Shown piece by piece: positions 33,844 to 53,838 of a stretch of 64,000 nt of DNA. This DNA comes from Flavobacteriales bacterium (GTDB taxonomy: Bacteria; Bacteroidota; Bacteroidia; CAIKAF01), in assembly GCA_018401695.1 (NCBI GenBank), contig JAGYKD010000001.1, forward strand, positions 1,180,016 to 1,244,015. Direction: 5' to 3'. Each line of letters begins with the position of its first letter. Within the stretch, counting starts at the first letter, position 1. The notes under the pieces were generated by a model. The model ran no database searches. It had not been told where the DNA came from and saw only the letters and a program-made list of their open reading frames with translations. Position numbers and translations under genes: made by a program.

Positions 33844-33863
33844 CCAATGGTTCAAACCATTGG
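33844..33863. terminator. Hairpin between convergent genes
   Basis: CCAATGGTT (33844-33852) and AACCATTGG (33855-33863) form a near-perfect palindrome that overlaps the stop codon of the AraC gene and follows the kinase stop. The short T-run beyond it is weak, so it is a candidate bidirectional terminator. Confidence 0.4.
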
Positions 33864-34745
33864 TTTGGACGGGGATTGCCTCAGCTCTGAGGGGAGCCTG
33901 CCGTGCCGCTCCTTAAACATTTTAGAGAACTTGCTAATGTTGGCGTAGCCAATGCGAAAAGCGACTTCGGAAACATTGAGCCCGGTGGTTTGAAGCAGTT
34001 TAAAGGCATGGTCTAAGCGCAAATCCAGGTAGTATCGGTATACGGATTGCGAAGTAGTTGCCTTAAATAAGGTCTTGAGTTTGGAAGGGCTTACGCCGCA
34101 GTGGTCGGCAATTTGGTTAATGGAAAGAATGGAGCCCTCGATGTGTTGTTCCATAAAGCGCACGGCGGCACGGGTCAAATCTTTGCTGCTTATTTTTACA
34201 CGGCCACTTCGGGCAATCCCTTCTTGAATATGGAAAAAGGCGTTAAGGGTTTGGAAAGTAAAGTAATTCCACTCCAAAAGACTTACTTTTTGCAGGGATT
34301 TATGCTGCAAAAGTCGGGTGGTTTCTTCTTGAAAGCTCATGTTCAAAACGAGTACCTCATGGAGGGGTTGCAAAAGGTCATTTGATGTGGTGTAAGGCAG
34401 GTTTGTGGCTTGTTGCATCAACCCTTTTTTGGATAGGAGAAAAACAAACACCCGTTTGCCCGGGAAAAACAAGCGCAAACTTTTTTTCTTAGCGCCACCC
34501 AGATGCAGCGCAGAAAGAGCCACTTTGTCGGTGGAGCAACAACCGGTTCCTTGCTCCTTACTATGCACGGCAAGAAGGCATTCTGCAGTTTTGGGTATAG
34601 GCAATTGATTGATTAGGCACTCTTTGGTAGGAATGCGTAAGCAAAGCATTTGAATGCCGGGCTCAATGGTAACATCCAATTCTTTGACCACGGACTCTAT
34701 GGAGCTTGGCCCTATAGTGGAATAAGATGGACTTGAAACAGCCAT
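33852..34745 (-). CDS. AraC-family transcriptional regulator 1
   Basis: A 297-residue regulator whose C-terminal 100 residues form the double helix-turn-helix AraC DNA-binding domain: SINQIADHCGVSPSKLKTLFKA and then LNVSEVAFRIGYANISKFSKMFKERHG. The N-terminal 190 residues show no known effector domain. A second regulator (36090-36947) has a very similar DNA-binding domain, so they are paralogues, with a small XRE regulator between them. The ATG at 34745 is preferred over an upstream TTG. Confidence 0.87.
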   Translation of the reverse strand: MAVSSPSYSTIGPSSIESVVKELDVTIEPGIQMLCLRIPTKECLINQLPIPKTAECLLAVHSKEQGTGCCSTDKVALSALHLGGAKKKSLRLFFPGKRVFVFLLSKKGLMQQATNLPYTTSNDLLQPLHEVLVLNMSFQEETTRLLQHKSLQKVSLLEWNYFTFQTLNAFFHIQEGIARSGRVKISSKDLTRAAVRFMEQHIEGSILSINQIADHCGVSPSKLKTLFKATTSQSVYRYYLDLRLDHAFKLLQTTGLNVSEVAFRIGYANISKFSKMFKERHGRLPSELRQSPSKPMV

Positions 34746-35253
34746 AAGTGAATTTTCGTTCGCCAATATAAAATCCGTTCGACAGAAGAATTATCTTGCG
34801 GATGGGTTCTGTACGTGCTTTAACGTTAGACAAAGAAATAGGTTTTATTCCAAAAAATAGAAAATCGCGTAAAATTTCCCTTTCGCCCGGTTCCAAGGCA
34901 TGGGTGTGCCAACATCCGCCCTGTTTTTGAGGCTTTGAGTGCTTATGGCTTAGGCTTCGCTTGGTCCTTAAATGCCTGAGAGAAACTCTTTGGGCATTTT
35001 GAATTGTCCTTTAGGGTTGCTGGAACGTTTATTTAGCCTGTGGTTGCATTTTGCCCCTCCAAAAGTCTTTGTTTTCGCTACTTTCGTGAGGGTCGCTAGC
35101 TTTTGTTTTTGTCGCTTCTGTCCCTTTGGGTTAGATTGTCATAGGATAGGGTTCGGCTAATTAAGAATTCGGGTTAAAAAGGTTGAGTATAGTTAAACGT
35201 TTTACGTTGATTTTTTTACCTTTGAACATATTGTTCACCCAACAACAAAATTG
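34746..35253. other. Intergenic region between AraC regulator 1 and the XRE gene
   Basis: No gene is supported in these 508 bases, which form the shared upstream region of divergent genes. A possible hairpin AAATGCC...GGCATTT lies at about 34970-35000, and the XRE promoter box is at 35217. Nothing else stands out. Confidence 0.5.
35217..35224 (+). promoter_or_regulatory. Candidate -7 box of the XRE regulator gene
   Basis: TACCTTTG after a T-run matches TAnnTTTG, 29 bases before the ATG at 35254. Confidence 0.5.
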
Positions 35254-35610
35254 ATGAGACTAAAAATCGGATCCGAAATTAAGCGATTGAGAAAAGAACA
35301 GCGCTTCACTCAAGAGCACATTGCACTCAAACTAGACATGAGTGTGGCAGGCTATTCGCGTATTGAGCGCGACGAAGTAAATGTAACCCTAGATAGGTTG
35401 CAAGAGTTGGCTGAAATTTTAGGCACAACCCCTGAATTTATTTTGGGTATTCATGATGAGAACGGAGAAATCATTTCGCCGGAACCTCTAGCCGACCAAG
35501 TTTTTGCAGCCAAGGTTGAAAAACTGTATCAAGACCAAATAGCTCAGCTAAAAGAAGAGGTGCAATTCCTCCGAGAGCAGCTGCGTCGTTTTGAACTTGC
35601 CGAAGATTAA
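35254..35610 (+). CDS. XRE-family transcriptional regulator with coiled-coil tail
   Basis: A 118-residue protein. Residues about 3-62 form an XRE helix-turn-helix (GSEIKRLRKEQRFTQEHIALKLDMSVAGYSRIERDE), followed by an acidic linker and a C-terminal coiled coil (KVEKLYQDQIAQLKEEVQFLREQL). It looks like a small phage- or plasmid-type repressor or a stationary regulator. A TTG three bases upstream is not needed; the ATG follows a good promoter. It is followed by a strong terminator. It lies between two paralogous AraC regulators; any joint role is unproven. Confidence 0.88.
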   Translation: MRLKIGSEIKRLRKEQRFTQEHIALKLDMSVAGYSRIERDEVNVTLDRLQELAEILGTTPEFILGIHDENGEIISPEPLADQVFAAKVEKLYQDQIAQLKEEVQFLREQLRRFELAED

Positions 35611-35613
35611 GCA

Positions 35614-35650
35614 TAGGCCACCTCATTGAGGTGGCCATTTTTTTTTCGAT
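35614..35650 (+). terminator. Rho-independent terminator of the XRE gene
   Basis: A stem GGCCACCTCATTGAGGTGGCC (about 35616-35636, with a 3-base loop) is followed by a run of nine or more T. It starts just after the XRE stop. Confidence 0.85.
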
Positions 35651-35863
35651 GCCTGCTGACCAGCTGTTGAAGCTCGGCTGCATCAAGGGTGCTTTTTTTT
35701 ACGTTTTGGTTGGGATAAGAACACATGATCCCGTTGTCATAATTTTGAAATCGCTCGATTTTTGCTGTGCGGAAGGCAGGAAGTTCGTTGTCTTGGCCTG
35801 CAGTGCGTAGCTATATTTCCTCCGACGTTTCGGGGCAGGATGCATACCCTTGCCTGGAGCGCT

Positions 35864-35962
35864 GAGGCGCTGCTATTGTCTGGCGGCGACCTTGTCTTGA
35901 TGCTTCGGTCAGCATGTTGATCGACATCTAGGGTCCTTAAAGACACAAGGCATCAACGCCTC
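35864..35962. repeat. Family E intergenic element, copy 2
   Basis: The block is bounded by GAGGCG (35864-35869) and CGCCTC (35957-35962). It shares the GCTATT motif and a GGCGGCG-CCTTGTC segment with the copy at 37327 (GGCGGCG-TTCCTGTC), and a hairpin CTTGATGCTTCGGTCAG that corresponds to the CCTGAC hairpin there, though it is more diverged. Confidence 0.45.
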
Positions 35963-36089
35963 ATTTCGCTTTTTCCCTGCGGCTTTGTCCAATGGTACAA
36001 GCCTTGGGTTTTATCTGTTTCCTTAATTCTTCTAACCTTGGGGCATCCATAGCCCACAGGTGTATGGAAAGCGTTGGTTATAAACGGAC

Positions 36090-36947
36090 TTACACGGCCA
36101 TGGCATTTTGTCCATGGCGCGACGGTAGATTTCCGTGGCGTTCTTTAAACATTTTGGAGAACTTTCCAATGTGGCTGTATCCAATTTTGTAGGCTACCTC
36201 TGAAACGTTAAGGCTGGTAGTGGCCAATAAGTCGGCTGCATGATCTAACCGTAAGTTCAAGTAGTAGCGATAGACCGAGATATTGGTTTCGGCTTTGAAA
36301 ATAGTTTTTAATTTGGATGGGCTTACGTGGCAATGTACAGCAATATCTTGGACGCTTAAAGGGTGGCCTTCCAAGTGCATTTCCATATATTTTATAGCGT
36401 TCCGAATCATTTCGGCTCGGTAACTTTTTACAGGTTTGTTTTGAATTAAACTCCACTGCTTTCTAAAAAAGGAACGGCTAACCAGGAAAGTAAAGTATGC
36501 CCATTCAATTTCGGAAACCTCATGCATACTTTCCAGCGTCTCCAAACGCTTGATTTCTTCAATCAATTCCAGATTCTGAATTCTTAAGTGCATAAAGCTG
36601 TAAAATGAATCGGCGCTAATGGCGCAGGAGTCCGAGTCATCAAGGTGAATTTTGGCTTGGTCCTGTAACCAACCACCTTTGCAATAGAAAACAAAGACCC
36701 TGCCGGTATTAGGGATACTTCCTTTTGGATGCTCAGAAGTTTTAAGAACCGAAATATTGGGCGCACTCGGTTTGCTGCCGGGCATTTGGTATACCACTGC
36801 CGCAAAAGCATACCTGTCCCCGTTGGGTATTTCCGTGGATTTGAGTTCTTCGCCTCCGGTGGCTATGCTCATTAAAAAAACGTCATTGCCCAGGGCAAGT
36901 TGAGTTTCGATGTAAGGCGTGGCTAGGCCTGATGTACTTGTTTTCAT
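36090..36947 (-). CDS. AraC-family transcriptional regulator 2
   Basis: A 285-residue paralogue of the regulator at 33852. The C-terminal domain is the AraC double helix-turn-helix (SVQDIAVHCHVSPSKLKTIFKAETN, then LNVSEVAYKIGYSHIGKFSKMFKERHG), closely similar to regulator 1. The N-terminal 180 residues resemble regulator 1 only loosely and match no effector domain I recognise. Both are on the minus strand with the XRE gene between. Confidence 0.88.
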   Translation of the reverse strand: MKTSTSGLATPYIETQLALGNDVFLMSIATGGEELKSTEIPNGDRYAFAAVVYQMPGSKPSAPNISVLKTSEHPKGSIPNTGRVFVFYCKGGWLQDQAKIHLDDSDSCAISADSFYSFMHLRIQNLELIEEIKRLETLESMHEVSEIEWAYFTFLVSRSFFRKQWSLIQNKPVKSYRAEMIRNAIKYMEMHLEGHPLSVQDIAVHCHVSPSKLKTIFKAETNISVYRYYLNLRLDHAADLLATTSLNVSEVAYKIGYSHIGKFSKMFKERHGNLPSRHGQNAMAV

Positions 36948-37202
36948 TGCTCTTATTAGTCTACCAAATGTACCTAAAAAACCCCTTTTTTGTTTAGCCT
37001 ATATGGTCAATTTTAAAATCCATAACGGGTTAAACAGAACTTTGAATAGTGTCCAAATAATGGAAAAAAGTCGGCAGATTCAATGTTTACAGCTAATTTA
37101 TAATAGCAAATAAACCGATTTAATTTTTGCAAGCCAAATTTTTGGATGCCTTTTAGGGTTATTAGGAGGTGTAAAATTTTACCGGCGTTTAGTGTCGATA
37201 CG

Positions 37203-37210
37203 TATATTTG
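37203..37210 (+). promoter_or_regulatory. Candidate -7 box for the 37.2 kb small RNA
   Basis: TATATTTG matches TAnnTTTG. The expected start of transcription is around 37216. Confidence 0.4.
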
Positions 37211-37215
37211 TCATG

Positions 37216-37301
37216 TCTTACTTGGGTTCTAATTCACCACCTGGTGGATAGATTAGGTGTATACCCGAAGTTCCTCTCGGAGCTTCGGGTACACCTTTTT
37301 T
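37216..37301 (+). ncRNA. Candidate small RNA of about 85 nt with a terminator
   Basis: A promoter box (37203-37210) is followed, about 40 bases later, by a strong hairpin GGTGTA-TA-CCCGAAG (37256-37270) with CTTCGGGTACACC (37283-37295) and a T6 run. Between them is a small CCAC/GTGG hairpin. There is no ORF with protein character and no gene upstream on the plus strand for the terminator to serve. The transcript end is inferred and the promoter is only a partial match. A database or RNA-seq check is needed before treating it as real. Confidence 0.4.
37256..37301 (+). terminator. Rho-independent terminator with no upstream gene
   Basis: A 13-bp stem with a two-base bulge and a T-run. Listed separately because it is the most certain part of the 37.2 kb small RNA. 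Confidence 0.75.
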
Positions 37302-37326
37302 AGGAGGGCACGTAAATGTAGAGACT

Positions 37327-37407
37327 GTTGACGTGCTGCTATTCCGGCGGCGTTCCTGTCCTGACCGCAGCGTCAGGGTTATACACGTGAAAACACAACG
37401 CGTCAAC
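37327..37407. repeat. Family E intergenic element, copy 3
   Basis: GTTGACG (37327-37333) and CGTCAAC (37401-37407) bound the block. The central CCTGAC-CGCAGC-GTCAGG hairpin (37360-37377), within a 26-nt identical stretch, is shared with copy 1 at 264-289, and GCTATT precedes it. Confidence 0.6.
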
Positions 37408-37754
37408 GGCCTTATGTAGTTTTGAAACGACGGAATTTTTCTTCTTTTCTTTGCAAAGATGCTTTTATTGCTGCCGGTTTCTTTTCGGTTTGCGCAGAAA
37501 ATGGGATTCCCTGATACCCATAGGCCAATGCCTTCAAGAAGGGTTTAATGGATATGTTACGCAAGTGCCGGACTTGTTTTGCTCCCAAGGTTCAAGTGCT
37601 TCAATGTATTCCCGGTGTTCCCCTAATCAAAAGCATCTTTCGGTCCAAACATGGGTTTAAAACAAGCATACCCTTGGTGATTATACCGTGCCTTTAATCT
37701 ATGAAAACATGTACACTCGGCATGAAATATTCGGAATCCTTACTTTACTTTAGA

Positions 37755-39719
37755 TTACAGGCTATTTTCGCTTTCTAAAAGGGTATTCACCCGTTCGCTG
37801 TTGCCAAATACCAGAAGGATATCGCCCCTTTCGGGTACATAAGATGCAGGTGGATGAGGGTTCCAAATGCTTGCGCGCCAATAGCCCAATACCGTTACCT
37901 CAAGCCGCTCCCGAATATTAGAACTGCCCAAATTGTGCCCGGTGAGCTGATGCGGATCCAAGTCCAGTTTTAAACTACCAATTTTTACGTTTGGAAAATG
38001 GCCAATCAACCCGGCTTCCCGTCCAAAAAGTGGCCTAATTCTTCGGTCGGCATTCGATCGAACCATATCGGCATAGTTTCGAATTAAATCGGGGGGGACC
38101 AAATACTGCGCCAAGGAGCGAACAGAAATTTCTACACTGCTTTCCACTTCTTCTGCCACCACATCGCTGGCTCCGAGGCTGCGCAACCTTGCGGCTTGCG
38201 TTAAACTTTTGCAGCGCGCAATAATGTGCACCGAGTTGCACATCTCTCGAATTTGTGCAACAATGCTTTCGGTGGCATGGTCGTCGGAGACAGCAACTAC
38301 AGCAACCCGCGCCTTAAAAACTCTTAAGTGCTCCAAAATAAAGGCCTGGGTGGCATCTCCAAAATGAGCCGGCTCTCCCAGGGCCTGCGCCTTTCGGATG
38401 CTTTCCGGGTTTAAATCGGCTACCACATAGCGAATGCCGGCCTTTTTGGCCACTTTGGCCATCTGTTGTCCGTTTAAACCATAGCCAATAATGATTAAAT
38501 GGTCTTTCAATTCCTCCTCTTCCTCCTCCGAAAGCTCCGGCAAATCAGGGAGTTTATTTGCCACCAGTTTTTTAATGATGCCTGGGGCCGCCATTATGGC
38601 AAATGGGGTTAATGCCATGGTAAATACCGAGACATTTAAAAAGTATTGGTACTCTACACCTCCAATTAAGGCATAATCCTGTCCGGTTTTGGAAAGAATA
38701 AAGGCAAATTCGCCCACTTGAAATAAGGCAAAACCTGTATTCAAAGCCACTTTTAATGGATATCCCAACAACCGAACTACAGCGGTTATAAGGCCAAATT
38801 TTACCGTCATAACCAACACGGTTAAGCCCAATACCTCAAGCACGTGATGCGCAAAAAAGTTCAGCTCCAAAAGCATGCCCACCGAAACAAAAAAGAAGCT
38901 GGTAAACAGCTCCCTAAAGGGAATAATAAGACTAGTGGCTTGGTGGCTGTAGGGTGAGCCCGAAATGGTTAAGCCCGCCAAAAAGGCGCCCAGGGCCAAG
39001 CTTAAACCCAAGCTCGAGGTGCCAAAGGCCACCGCAAAACAAATAACCACCACCGATAACAAAAACAGCTCTCGGCTTCGGGTTCGGGCAATTTCTCGCA
39101 ACAAGAAAGGAACCGCATAGGTTGTGCCCAAAAACAAACAAAGCCCAACCGCCAGGAATTTTACCAACAATATACCCAGCTGCACCCATGGATTACCCTC
39201 CCCCGCACCTGCCAATATGGGCGTTACCAGCATCATGGGCACCACAATAATATCCTGAAAAATTAAGATGCCCAAGGCCATCCTACCATACGGGGTGCGA
39301 ATCTCTCCCCGTTCTTGAATTAGCTTCAACACAATGGCCGTGCTACTTAAACTAAATAAAAACCCGATGAACAGCGCCGACTCCATGCCCAAGCCCCAAA
39401 GTAGGGCTACCCCACCCATGGAAGCAATGGTAAGCAATACTTGCCCCGTGCCGCCGCCCAAAACAGCTTTGCGCAGCTTCATTAAATCGTTGAGCGAAAA
39501 CTCCAAACCAATGATGAACAGCAGCAACACGACCCCGATTTCACTCAGCATCTCAATTTCATGAGAGGCGGAGGCTAGTCCAAATCCCGAAGGCCCAAAA
39601 ATGATACCGGTGGCCAAAAAACCCAAGATGGTGGGCAATTTGAGTTTTTGAAACAAATAAATGACCAATACAGAAAGGCCGAGTATGGTAACAGCTTCTT
39701 TTAGTAGCGGGATTTCCAT
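37755..39719 (-). CDS. KefB-type cation:proton antiporter with TrkA domains
   Basis: A 654-residue CPA2 (KefB/KefC-like) antiporter that exchanges K+ or Na+ for protons across the inner membrane. The N-terminal 380 residues hold about twelve helices, including FPAIGVVLLLFIIGLEFS-like and LLSVVVICFAVAFGTSSLGLSLALGAFLAGL. The C-terminal half holds a TrkA-N Rossmann domain (IIIGYGLNGQQMAKVAKKAG...HFGDATQ) and a TrkA-C domain (about 570-654), which sense nucleotides. Stress or pH homeostasis is the usual role; the ion is not assigned. Confidence 0.92.
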   Translation of the reverse strand: MEIPLLKEAVTILGLSVLVIYLFQKLKLPTILGFLATGIIFGPSGFGLASASHEIEMLSEIGVVLLLFIIGLEFSLNDLMKLRKAVLGGGTGQVLLTIASMGGVALLWGLGMESALFIGFLFSLSSTAIVLKLIQERGEIRTPYGRMALGILIFQDIIVVPMMLVTPILAGAGEGNPWVQLGILLVKFLAVGLCLFLGTTYAVPFLLREIARTRSRELFLLSVVVICFAVAFGTSSLGLSLALGAFLAGLTISGSPYSHQATSLIIPFRELFTSFFFVSVGMLLELNFFAHHVLEVLGLTVLVMTVKFGLITAVVRLLGYPLKVALNTGFALFQVGEFAFILSKTGQDYALIGGVEYQYFLNVSVFTMALTPFAIMAAPGIIKKLVANKLPDLPELSEEEEEELKDHLIIIGYGLNGQQMAKVAKKAGIRYVVADLNPESIRKAQALGEPAHFGDATQAFILEHLRVFKARVAVVAVSDDHATESIVAQIREMCNSVHIIARCKSLTQAARLRSLGASDVVAEEVESSVEISVRSLAQYLVPPDLIRNYADMVRSNADRRIRPLFGREAGLIGHFPNVKIGSLKLDLDPHQLTGHNLGSSNIRERLEVTVLGYWRASIWNPHPPASYVPERGDILLVFGNSERVNTLLESENSL

Positions 39720-39775
39720 ACGGAAAGATACTTAAGTTTCCGTTTTGCTCTTCAATAGGTATGGGCTTTTCGTAG

Positions 39776-40522
39776 CTACACCGACTCAACTACGGGAAGA
39801 CTTTGCTCTATGGCGTCCCAAAATTTTAACCGGGCCATTAAGGCTGCTCGTCCGGCCTCGGCTGCTTCTTTTTCCTTGGTCTTGTCACCACCGCAAAGGG
39901 CCGCTACCAGACGTTTGGCCATATCGGCGTGTTGGCCTCCATCTACTTCTATATGCCGCTCCAAATAGTACAAATACAAGCTCCATTTCCCCTTTTCTGT
40001 GTCGTTCATACTTTCTACCATGCCTTGAAACATGTCCGGAATCAAATCTTCTCGCCCCAGGGTAAATGCAGCGGCCACTTCGTGCAAGCCCCCGTTTTCA
40101 ATCAAGTCAAAGCTGTGTTCCATAAACGCTCTTGCCGCGGGGGGAACTTGCGTCATATTAGGCAATTTTCCCCTGCTTTGGGCTTCGGACACCAGGGCCT
40201 TTATCGCTCCAACACGGGCACCGCATTGCTCCATGGCTTCTACATACATTTCAAAATGACTCAAATACCGCCCATCGGGCAACACATCGGCCTCTTCCCC
40301 TGCAACAATCTCGTTGATTAAATGCCTGGCTTCGGCTTGACTTACCGGCACCCAGGGCACCCGCACGCAGGTAAGCTCCAGTTGTAGCTTTTTTACCAAG
40401 GACATAAAATCCCAAACCGCATACACGTGGTGTTCCATAAAATGCCGCAATGCCTCGGGGTGGTTTAGCTTGGGATACAAACGGTGTTCCCTTAGCGCTA
40501 GTTTCAATTCTGTTGTGGTCAT
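39776..40522 (-). CDS. DUF3050-family protein
   Basis: A 248-residue protein that matches the DUF3050 family. The first third has HPEALRHFMEHHVYAVWDFMSLVKKLQ and the last third has YLERHIEVDGGQHADMAKRL. Such spaced His/Glu motifs recall haem-oxygenase-like diiron enzymes, a suggestion from the motif pattern only. The ATG at 40522 is preferred over a TTG nine bases upstream. Its stop lies 56 bases before the antiporter start on the same strand. A flavodoxin-like gene precedes it by 24 bases, so the pair may be co-transcribed and could be a redox pair. Confidence 0.78.
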   Translation of the reverse strand: MTTTELKLALREHRLYPKLNHPEALRHFMEHHVYAVWDFMSLVKKLQLELTCVRVPWVPVSQAEARHLINEIVAGEEADVLPDGRYLSHFEMYVEAMEQCGARVGAIKALVSEAQSRGKLPNMTQVPPAARAFMEHSFDLIENGGLHEVAAAFTLGREDLIPDMFQGMVESMNDTEKGKWSLYLYYLERHIEVDGGQHADMAKRLVAALCGGDKTKEKEAAEAGRAALMARLKFWDAIEQSLPVVESV

Positions 40523-40546
40523 ACCTAGCAAACCCTTAAGCCTCGA

Positions 40547-53300: not shown

Positions 53301-53838
53301 ATAACAAATATACACAGACTGTCTGTTATTGTGCCGTCGGAACCCGGCTGCCCTTCCAGGGAAAGTTGGCAAAGCCATTTGGCCCGATTACAGATTTTCT
53401 GCATTTGCTTAGCGTAAACAAAACGTTCCTTCCTTTCTTTATCGCTGGTATTGGAGGAGAGCTCCTGCCTACTTTTGCAGTGGTATGTTGTGTGCCGTTG
53501 GCATATCGCTTGGCAAAGGCCAAAGGCAAGCAAATAAAGACCAAAGCATTTAATCGACATTTTATTATGCCTCAAAAGAAAAAACTAAATGGTAAAGGGA
53601 CATTTTGCAGCCCTTTTCGCTTTTTTCAGATGGAGACTTTGTCAACTCCTATTCCATATGCAGCCTTCAGAGAGAGCTCTTCTTCGGATCCACATATTAT
53701 TATTGAGAATGACCAAGAACCAATTGGTTCACCCAAGTCAGATAGAACCAAAATAAATAAAGGTAAATGAGCTAAAAAAACGAGCGCCGAGTAGGGCGAA
53801 ATGTAAAAAATAGTTAGGTTTGACAAAAGCTTTTGGAT
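53301..53838. other. Intergenic region between kmo and gcvH
   Basis: No gene is convincing in these 538 bases. A 134-codon frame at 53366-53770 starts at TTG and has no protein character beyond an Ile/Leu-rich segment. A -7-like box precedes gcvH. Confidence 0.5.
53815..53822 (+). promoter_or_regulatory. Candidate -7 box of the gcvH operon
   Basis: TAGGTTTG matches TAnnTTTG, 16 bases before the gcvH ATG. Confidence 0.45.

Follow-up and report, generated by a model that had tools for sequence, protein, structure and literature searches.

To our knowledge, the small RNAs of the Bacteroidia are little charted outside a few model species. The pairs GcvA-GcvB, OxyR-OxyS and SgrR-SgrS, in which a regulator gene lies divergent from the small RNA under its control, are proteobacterial, Hfq-linked and built on other types of regulator than the one considered here. 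GcvB is described as being activated by GcvA (PMC4773443). Within the Bacteroidetes, the account given of GibS of Bacteroides thetaiotaomicron is that a conserved single-stranded 5′ portion pairs with the start regions of two mRNAs (PMC7366714).

The locus examined here lies in a 64,000-nucleotide stretch of Flavobacteriales DNA (the window), located on contig C1 of a host genome of 2.99 Mb in 19 contigs (G000). Our favoured reading, held with moderate confidence, is that it encodes an independent trans-acting small RNA, probably controlled by an AraC-family protein and pairing via its 5′ end.

Anatomy of the predicted unit

The unit occupies about 100 bp of an intergenic region and comprises the following elements, given with what is kept in the sister genome G003.

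37203-37210, plus strand: -7 promoter box TATATTTG of the small RNA, of the form TAnnTTTG, a form kept in G003
37215-37301, plus strand: predicted small RNA of ~87 nt, its start taken from the position of the box and its end from the T6 run, kept in G003
37212-37254, plus strand: near-invariant core, made up of the 5′ end (candidate seed) and hairpin 1, 42/43 identical to G003
37228-37252, plus strand: hairpin 1, predicted to form 10 pairs, all invariant between the two species
37255-37301, plus strand: intrinsic terminator, composed of an 18-pair stem at 37255-37296 (predicted fold) and T6 at 37296-37301

The structural elements that the first-pass annotation had read from the letters are recovered. 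The box that it named, TATATTTG, is present at 37203-37210 and fits the Bacteroidetes -7 box TAnnTTTG, its short hairpin is located at 37228-37252, and its 13-bp stem with T6 corresponds to a terminator core at 37262-37291, for which a pattern scan gives 13 pairs (7 G-C), together with the T run at 37296-37301. It had also described the region as free of plus-strand genes, and no convincing plus-strand gene is indeed found at the unit. The predicted start at 37215 follows from the placement of the box at -12 to -5 in the Flavobacterium psychrophilum promoters, as described in PMC9723704. The 5′ end, ~37215-37227, is unpaired in the predicted fold. The segment 37214-37301 folds with -39 kcal/mol (z -6.33), a stability equalled by 0/200 shuffles, and the G003 copy folds stably too (z -4.99).

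Terminator-like sites are abundant in the surroundings, with 14 in 35000-40000 by pattern scan vs 8.0 (sd 2.5) in shuffles; that of the small RNA has the most pairs among these 14. A stricter rule of our own selects four strong terminators on both strands of the 64-kb window, of which that of the small RNA alone is preceded by a TAnnTTTG box within 150 nt. Since the plus strand of the window carries 27 such boxes, which by our own arithmetic amounts to a ~6% chance of a box per terminator, the combination of box and terminator is, taken alone, suggestive at most. A scan for sigma-70 promoters of the E. coli type listed none at the unit, as expected because the promoter would be of the Bacteroidetes type, and no clear -33 box was seen by eye upstream of the small RNA. 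The second TAnnTTTG in the direction of the small RNA within the window's intergenic region is situated at 37417, past the unit.

Genomic setting

The unit is divergent from a regulator gene and convergent with an antiporter gene.

35251-35610, plus strand: XRE-type regulator, the nearest convincing plus-strand gene upstream of the unit
36090-36947, minus strand: AraC-family regulator (Pfam HTH_18, E 7.6e-20, and HTH_AraC), candidate controller
37755-39719, minus strand: KefC-like cation/proton antiporter, with Na_H_Exchanger and TrkA_N matches

The XRE-type gene is followed by its own terminator-like site (35616-35636) and the genes flanking the unit are on the minus strand, which leaves the terminator at 37262-37291 without an evident protein gene to serve. 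As far as can be judged from the sequence, the small RNA does not appear to be part of a longer mRNA. The open reading frames 37218-37406 (minus strand, 62 aa) and 36919-37113 (plus strand, 64 aa) look, in our judgement, spurious.

Several features of the neighbourhood deserve mention in their own right. Two paralogous AraC-family genes, ~50% identical over the matched part, flank the XRE-type regulator in 33852-36947, and G003 likewise has this AraC/XRE/AraC set together; a third AraC-family copy, more distant (38%), is located elsewhere in both genomes. A DUF3050 protein (39776-40531, E 1.1e-88), which also has a haem-oxygenase-like match that stays under its cut-off, adjoins the KefC-like gene and is retained in the G003 syntenic block. 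When the window and 12 loci were searched for paralogs of the unit with model R1, the matches returned were the two copies already known, the reverse strands of these and a single match at chance level (53692-53748); accordingly, no copy of the small RNA is found upstream of the paralogous AraC-family gene 33852-34766.

Just past the terminator begins a dispersed repeat (37312-37415), which resembles a REP or MITE element. A 321-base query (37100-37420) found 80 matching pieces in its own genome, and the 79 non-self pieces all fall within 37312-37415. The element contains an inner inverted repeat, CCTGAC...GTCAGG, and seven of its copies, in mixed orientation, were aligned with the window, so that its borders are approximate. 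A second copy of the repeat core CCTGACCGCAGCGTCAGG is found near the start of the window, at 270-287, and a weakly similar stretch (50/71 bases) lies beside the unit in G003.

Conservation and covariation

Conservation is the main sequence evidence that the unit may be regarded as a gene. In G003 it lies, on a 30547-base contig, between the same AraC-family gene (230/282 aa identical) and KefC-like gene, with 87% identity over 37207-37294. The 42 identical positions out of 43 in the core have P ~3e-8 against p = 0.62 and are less striking against a coding-type identity of 0.85 (P ~0.008). Fourfold sites are identical in 36/78 cases in the AraC-family gene, 72/117 in part of the KefC-like gene and 24/38 in the XRE-type gene (46-63%). 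In five neighbouring coding genes, 31/4632 windows of 43 bases reach 42 identical positions; identity at the level of the core is rare but not unheard of in coding sequence.

Around the core, identity varies widely. It is 43/53 in the block 37128-37180, 11/26 in the spacer just upstream of the box (37177-37202) and, in a forced alignment, 11-20/40 per 40-base step to the right of 37308. The box (6/8, P 0.36) does not rise above neutral, nor does the terminator segment when considered alone (32/43, P 0.06). The G003 box, TAGCTTTG, stands at the orthologous place and is the only TAnnTTTG in the small RNA direction in the intergenic region of that genome; two free positions have changed and the form TAnnTTTG is kept. 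The G003 terminator keeps its stem, with a T run that is broken and not clean.

Between G000 and G003, 3/28 pairs are changed on both sides, all of them in the terminator stem, and one pair is broken, so that 35/36 cells of the terminator helix are still paired. When the partners are slid by 1-3 columns, pairing falls from 98% to 29-48%, and each of the six slid versions has 0 double-sided changes; at the +1 slide, further pair types number 4 vs 3 observed. In a shuffle control, which is weak with two sequences, 75/500 shuffles reach the covariation measures and 42/500 the paired fraction. The covariation rests on a single comparison because only two species carry the unit.

The distribution is indeed narrow. 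By blastn, the unit is present in 2/6 genomes of the genus (its own included) and 2/16 of the family, and a search at the level of the order, which covered the same 16 genomes, finds it in the same two. The covariance model built from the two copies matches in 2/395 genomes of the class, both matches being its source copies, in a search whose stricter filters may lose weak matches. The antiporter is found in 2/16 genomes at E <= 1e-60, and a close AraC ortholog only in the host genome and G003, each of the other four genomes of the genus having one partial relative (36-52%). Because the whole block of small RNA, regulator and antiporter is common to the same two genomes, co-occurrence of the small RNA with the regulator shows no link between them. 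A search of public contigs with the AraC-family protein returned two loci, JAUHWY010000029.1 and a distant Shewanella AraC-type match.

The covariance search for conservation in relatives, proposed by the first-pass annotation as a check, thus finds the unit kept in G003 with the box in the same place and three stem pairs changed on both sides. The annotation's central proposal, an unannotated small RNA with its own promoter and terminator, gains support from the conservation in G003, the position of the box and the paired stem changes. Transcription of the unit is what we infer from these features, and they make it very probable that the unit is a real small RNA gene.

Predicted promoter of the regulator and candidate operator

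Two further elements were found between the regulator and the unit.

36965-36972, minus strand: -7 box TACATTTG of the AraC-family gene, which ends 17 nt upstream of the ATG; TAGTTTTG has an identical spacing in G003
37122-37150, no strand assigned: direct repeat AATTTTTGCAAGCC-N-AATTTTTGGATGCC, candidate operator

The boxes TACATTTG and TAGTTTTG are the only TAnnTTTG boxes in the AraC direction in the window and in G003, respectively, and the predicted starts of the small RNA and of the AraC-family gene are 255 bp apart. The two 14-bp copies of the repeat (37122-37135 and 37137-37150, spacing 15 bp) match each other at 12/14 positions in G000 and in G003 alike, and a T/A difference that separates the two species is present in both copies. 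A repeat equally good in both species arose in 0/2000 column shuffles and 0/2000 doublet shuffles. Relative to the small RNA start it spans roughly -93 to -65, and its distance to the predicted start of the AraC-family gene is ~160-190 bp. From this we infer that a dimeric regulator may bind there, the simplest candidate being the divergent AraC-family protein. Position and repeat are the basis for linking the two, and whether this regulator controls the small RNA appears to us evenly poised.

A wider set of sites was also sought with a 19-base motif covering the second repeat copy (37140-37158). Allowing at most 3 mismatches and counting the motif itself, it has 8 matches in G000, where its reversed control has 2, and 7 in G003, where the control has 3. 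Among the 13 non-self matches, 6 are clearly inside long open reading frames and the rest are between frames or unclear. Only one pair of matches (L055, L054), beside another terminator, is common to both genomes, and despite the excess over the control these matches are not counted as a regulon.

Proposed mechanism and search for targets

In the mechanism proposed here, a sigma-A-type promoter with the -7 box TAnnTTTG would start an RNA of ~87 nt (37215-37301), its start being set by the promoter geometry described for F. psychrophilum, and the intrinsic terminator would end it. The near-invariant unpaired 5′ end (~37215-37227) would pair in trans, as a seed, with one or more mRNAs, while hairpin 1 and the terminator would stabilize the RNA. 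The AraC-family protein would control the small RNA by binding the direct repeat at 37122-37150. By analogy with GibS, which the near-invariant unpaired 5′ end recalls, the small RNA probably acts by base pairing.

Limited searches for partners returned numbers close to background. A 15-base stretch of the 5′ end was searched as its complement with at most 2 mismatches; self included, it has 7 matches in G000, where the reversed control has 6, and 6 in G003, where the control has 9, overall no more than the control. For the 11 non-self matches, the site was placed on the given strand in 7 cases. One G000 match (L042), with 2 mismatches and no G003 counterpart listed, overlaps the start codon of a gene that we take to be sugar-nucleotidyltransferase-like. 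A match shared by both genomes (L044, L041) was rejected as a target: it is orthologous, lies inside a long coding frame and has the same two mismatches, which coding conservation explains. Predicted duplexes with seven neighbouring start regions have unremarkable energies; 17/200 background windows equal the best of them.

Hfq was found in 0/2 genomes, in a search whose control matched in 5/14 known genomes. RRM_1 has two matches in each of the two genomes, and RbpB and similar RNA-binding proteins of Bacteroidetes belong to the RRM class.

Alternative readings

The arrangement of the unit between two minus-strand genes allows for a role in cis, in which its transcript would oppose read-through from the KefC-like gene into the AraC-family gene, either as an antisense RNA, in this case against the untranslated 3′ end of the KefC-like transcript, or by colliding transcription. 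The two genes do lie on the minus strand on either side of the unit, and the pattern scan shows no minus-strand terminator in 37300-37755. Such a role needs no near-invariant 5′ end, however, and conservation drops from 42/43 in the core to 11-20/40 right of 37308, which makes a role in cis unlikely. The core could also be a DNA operator, with a terminator that is fortuitous or merely insulating. The block does precede a regulator gene, and some of the intergenic sequence clearly resembles an operator. The core itself, however, is separated by ~240 bp from the -7 box of the regulator, and on the opposite strand it is immediately flanked by the conserved -7 box of the small RNA and by a terminator stem showing paired changes; we regard the operator explanation as quite improbable.

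Conservation of the core could otherwise reflect a tiny mRNA, leaderless or with a slightly earlier start, since an ATG at 37213 opens a 12-codon frame ending with TAG at 37249-37251. The encoded peptide would be MSYLGSNSPPGG, and MSYLGSNSPLGG in G003 (by eye), so that frame, start and stop are all kept, and leaderless mRNAs are known in flavobacteria, where they make up 5.5% of the F. psychrophilum set described in PMC9723704. Against this, the predicted start at 37215 falls inside the ATG (37213-37215), and the start codon would be cut because the box at -12 to -5, as described in that source, puts the start there. Moreover, the only substitution in the frame alters an amino acid, synonymous changes are absent, and conservation continues beyond the stop to 37254. 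We regard a tiny mRNA as unlikely. A dual-function RNA, which would be driven by AraC, pair without Hfq with the help of an RRM-domain chaperone and also encode the 12-residue peptide MSYLGSNSPPGG from the 5′-most start codon, seems to us highly improbable. The trans-acting small RNA is retained as the preferred reading.

Comparison with known systems

No Rfam family was found to account for the unit. Rfam 15 has 0 matches at gathering score in the whole window, and a loose search of 37100-37430 gave four matches far under the cut-offs, all to eukaryotic families. There is no tRNA or tmRNA in the window. The phage and plasmid collections gave no match, and a 23-base core has 0 exact matches in viral contigs. 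In literature searches on small RNAs with AraC or Bacteroidetes and on TAnnTTTG with small RNAs, no title was recognised as describing the present RNA. We take it to be a new and lineage-specific representative of a familiar class, the bacterial small RNAs. The candidate is compact: in genomes with no detectable Hfq, it brings together a promoter box, a terminator, a conserved 5′ end as candidate seed and a likely regulator. It is a useful lineage-specific example that by itself leaves current knowledge unchanged.

The likeness to GibS is one of layout, and no sequence relation is claimed: according to the description in PMC7366714, GibS is likewise an intergenic small RNA of Bacteroidetes with its own promoter, a conserved and mostly single-stranded 5′ part and an intrinsic terminator, whereas it is longer (~145 nt), is transcribed from a non-canonical PM2 promoter and has known targets. 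Rfp18 and other independent transcripts of Flavobacterium psychrophilum, as presented in PMC9723704, belong to the same phylum and share a strong predicted fold and TAnnTTTG promoters; Rfp18 differs in being widely conserved in its genus and protease-linked, the present RNA having been found in two species only. With GcvA-GcvB, OxyR-OxyS and SgrR-SgrS, the locus shares the layout of a regulator gene pointing away from a small RNA. In contrast to GcvB, OxyS and SgrS, the regulator here belongs to the AraC family, Hfq is not found, and control is predicted from position and repeat.
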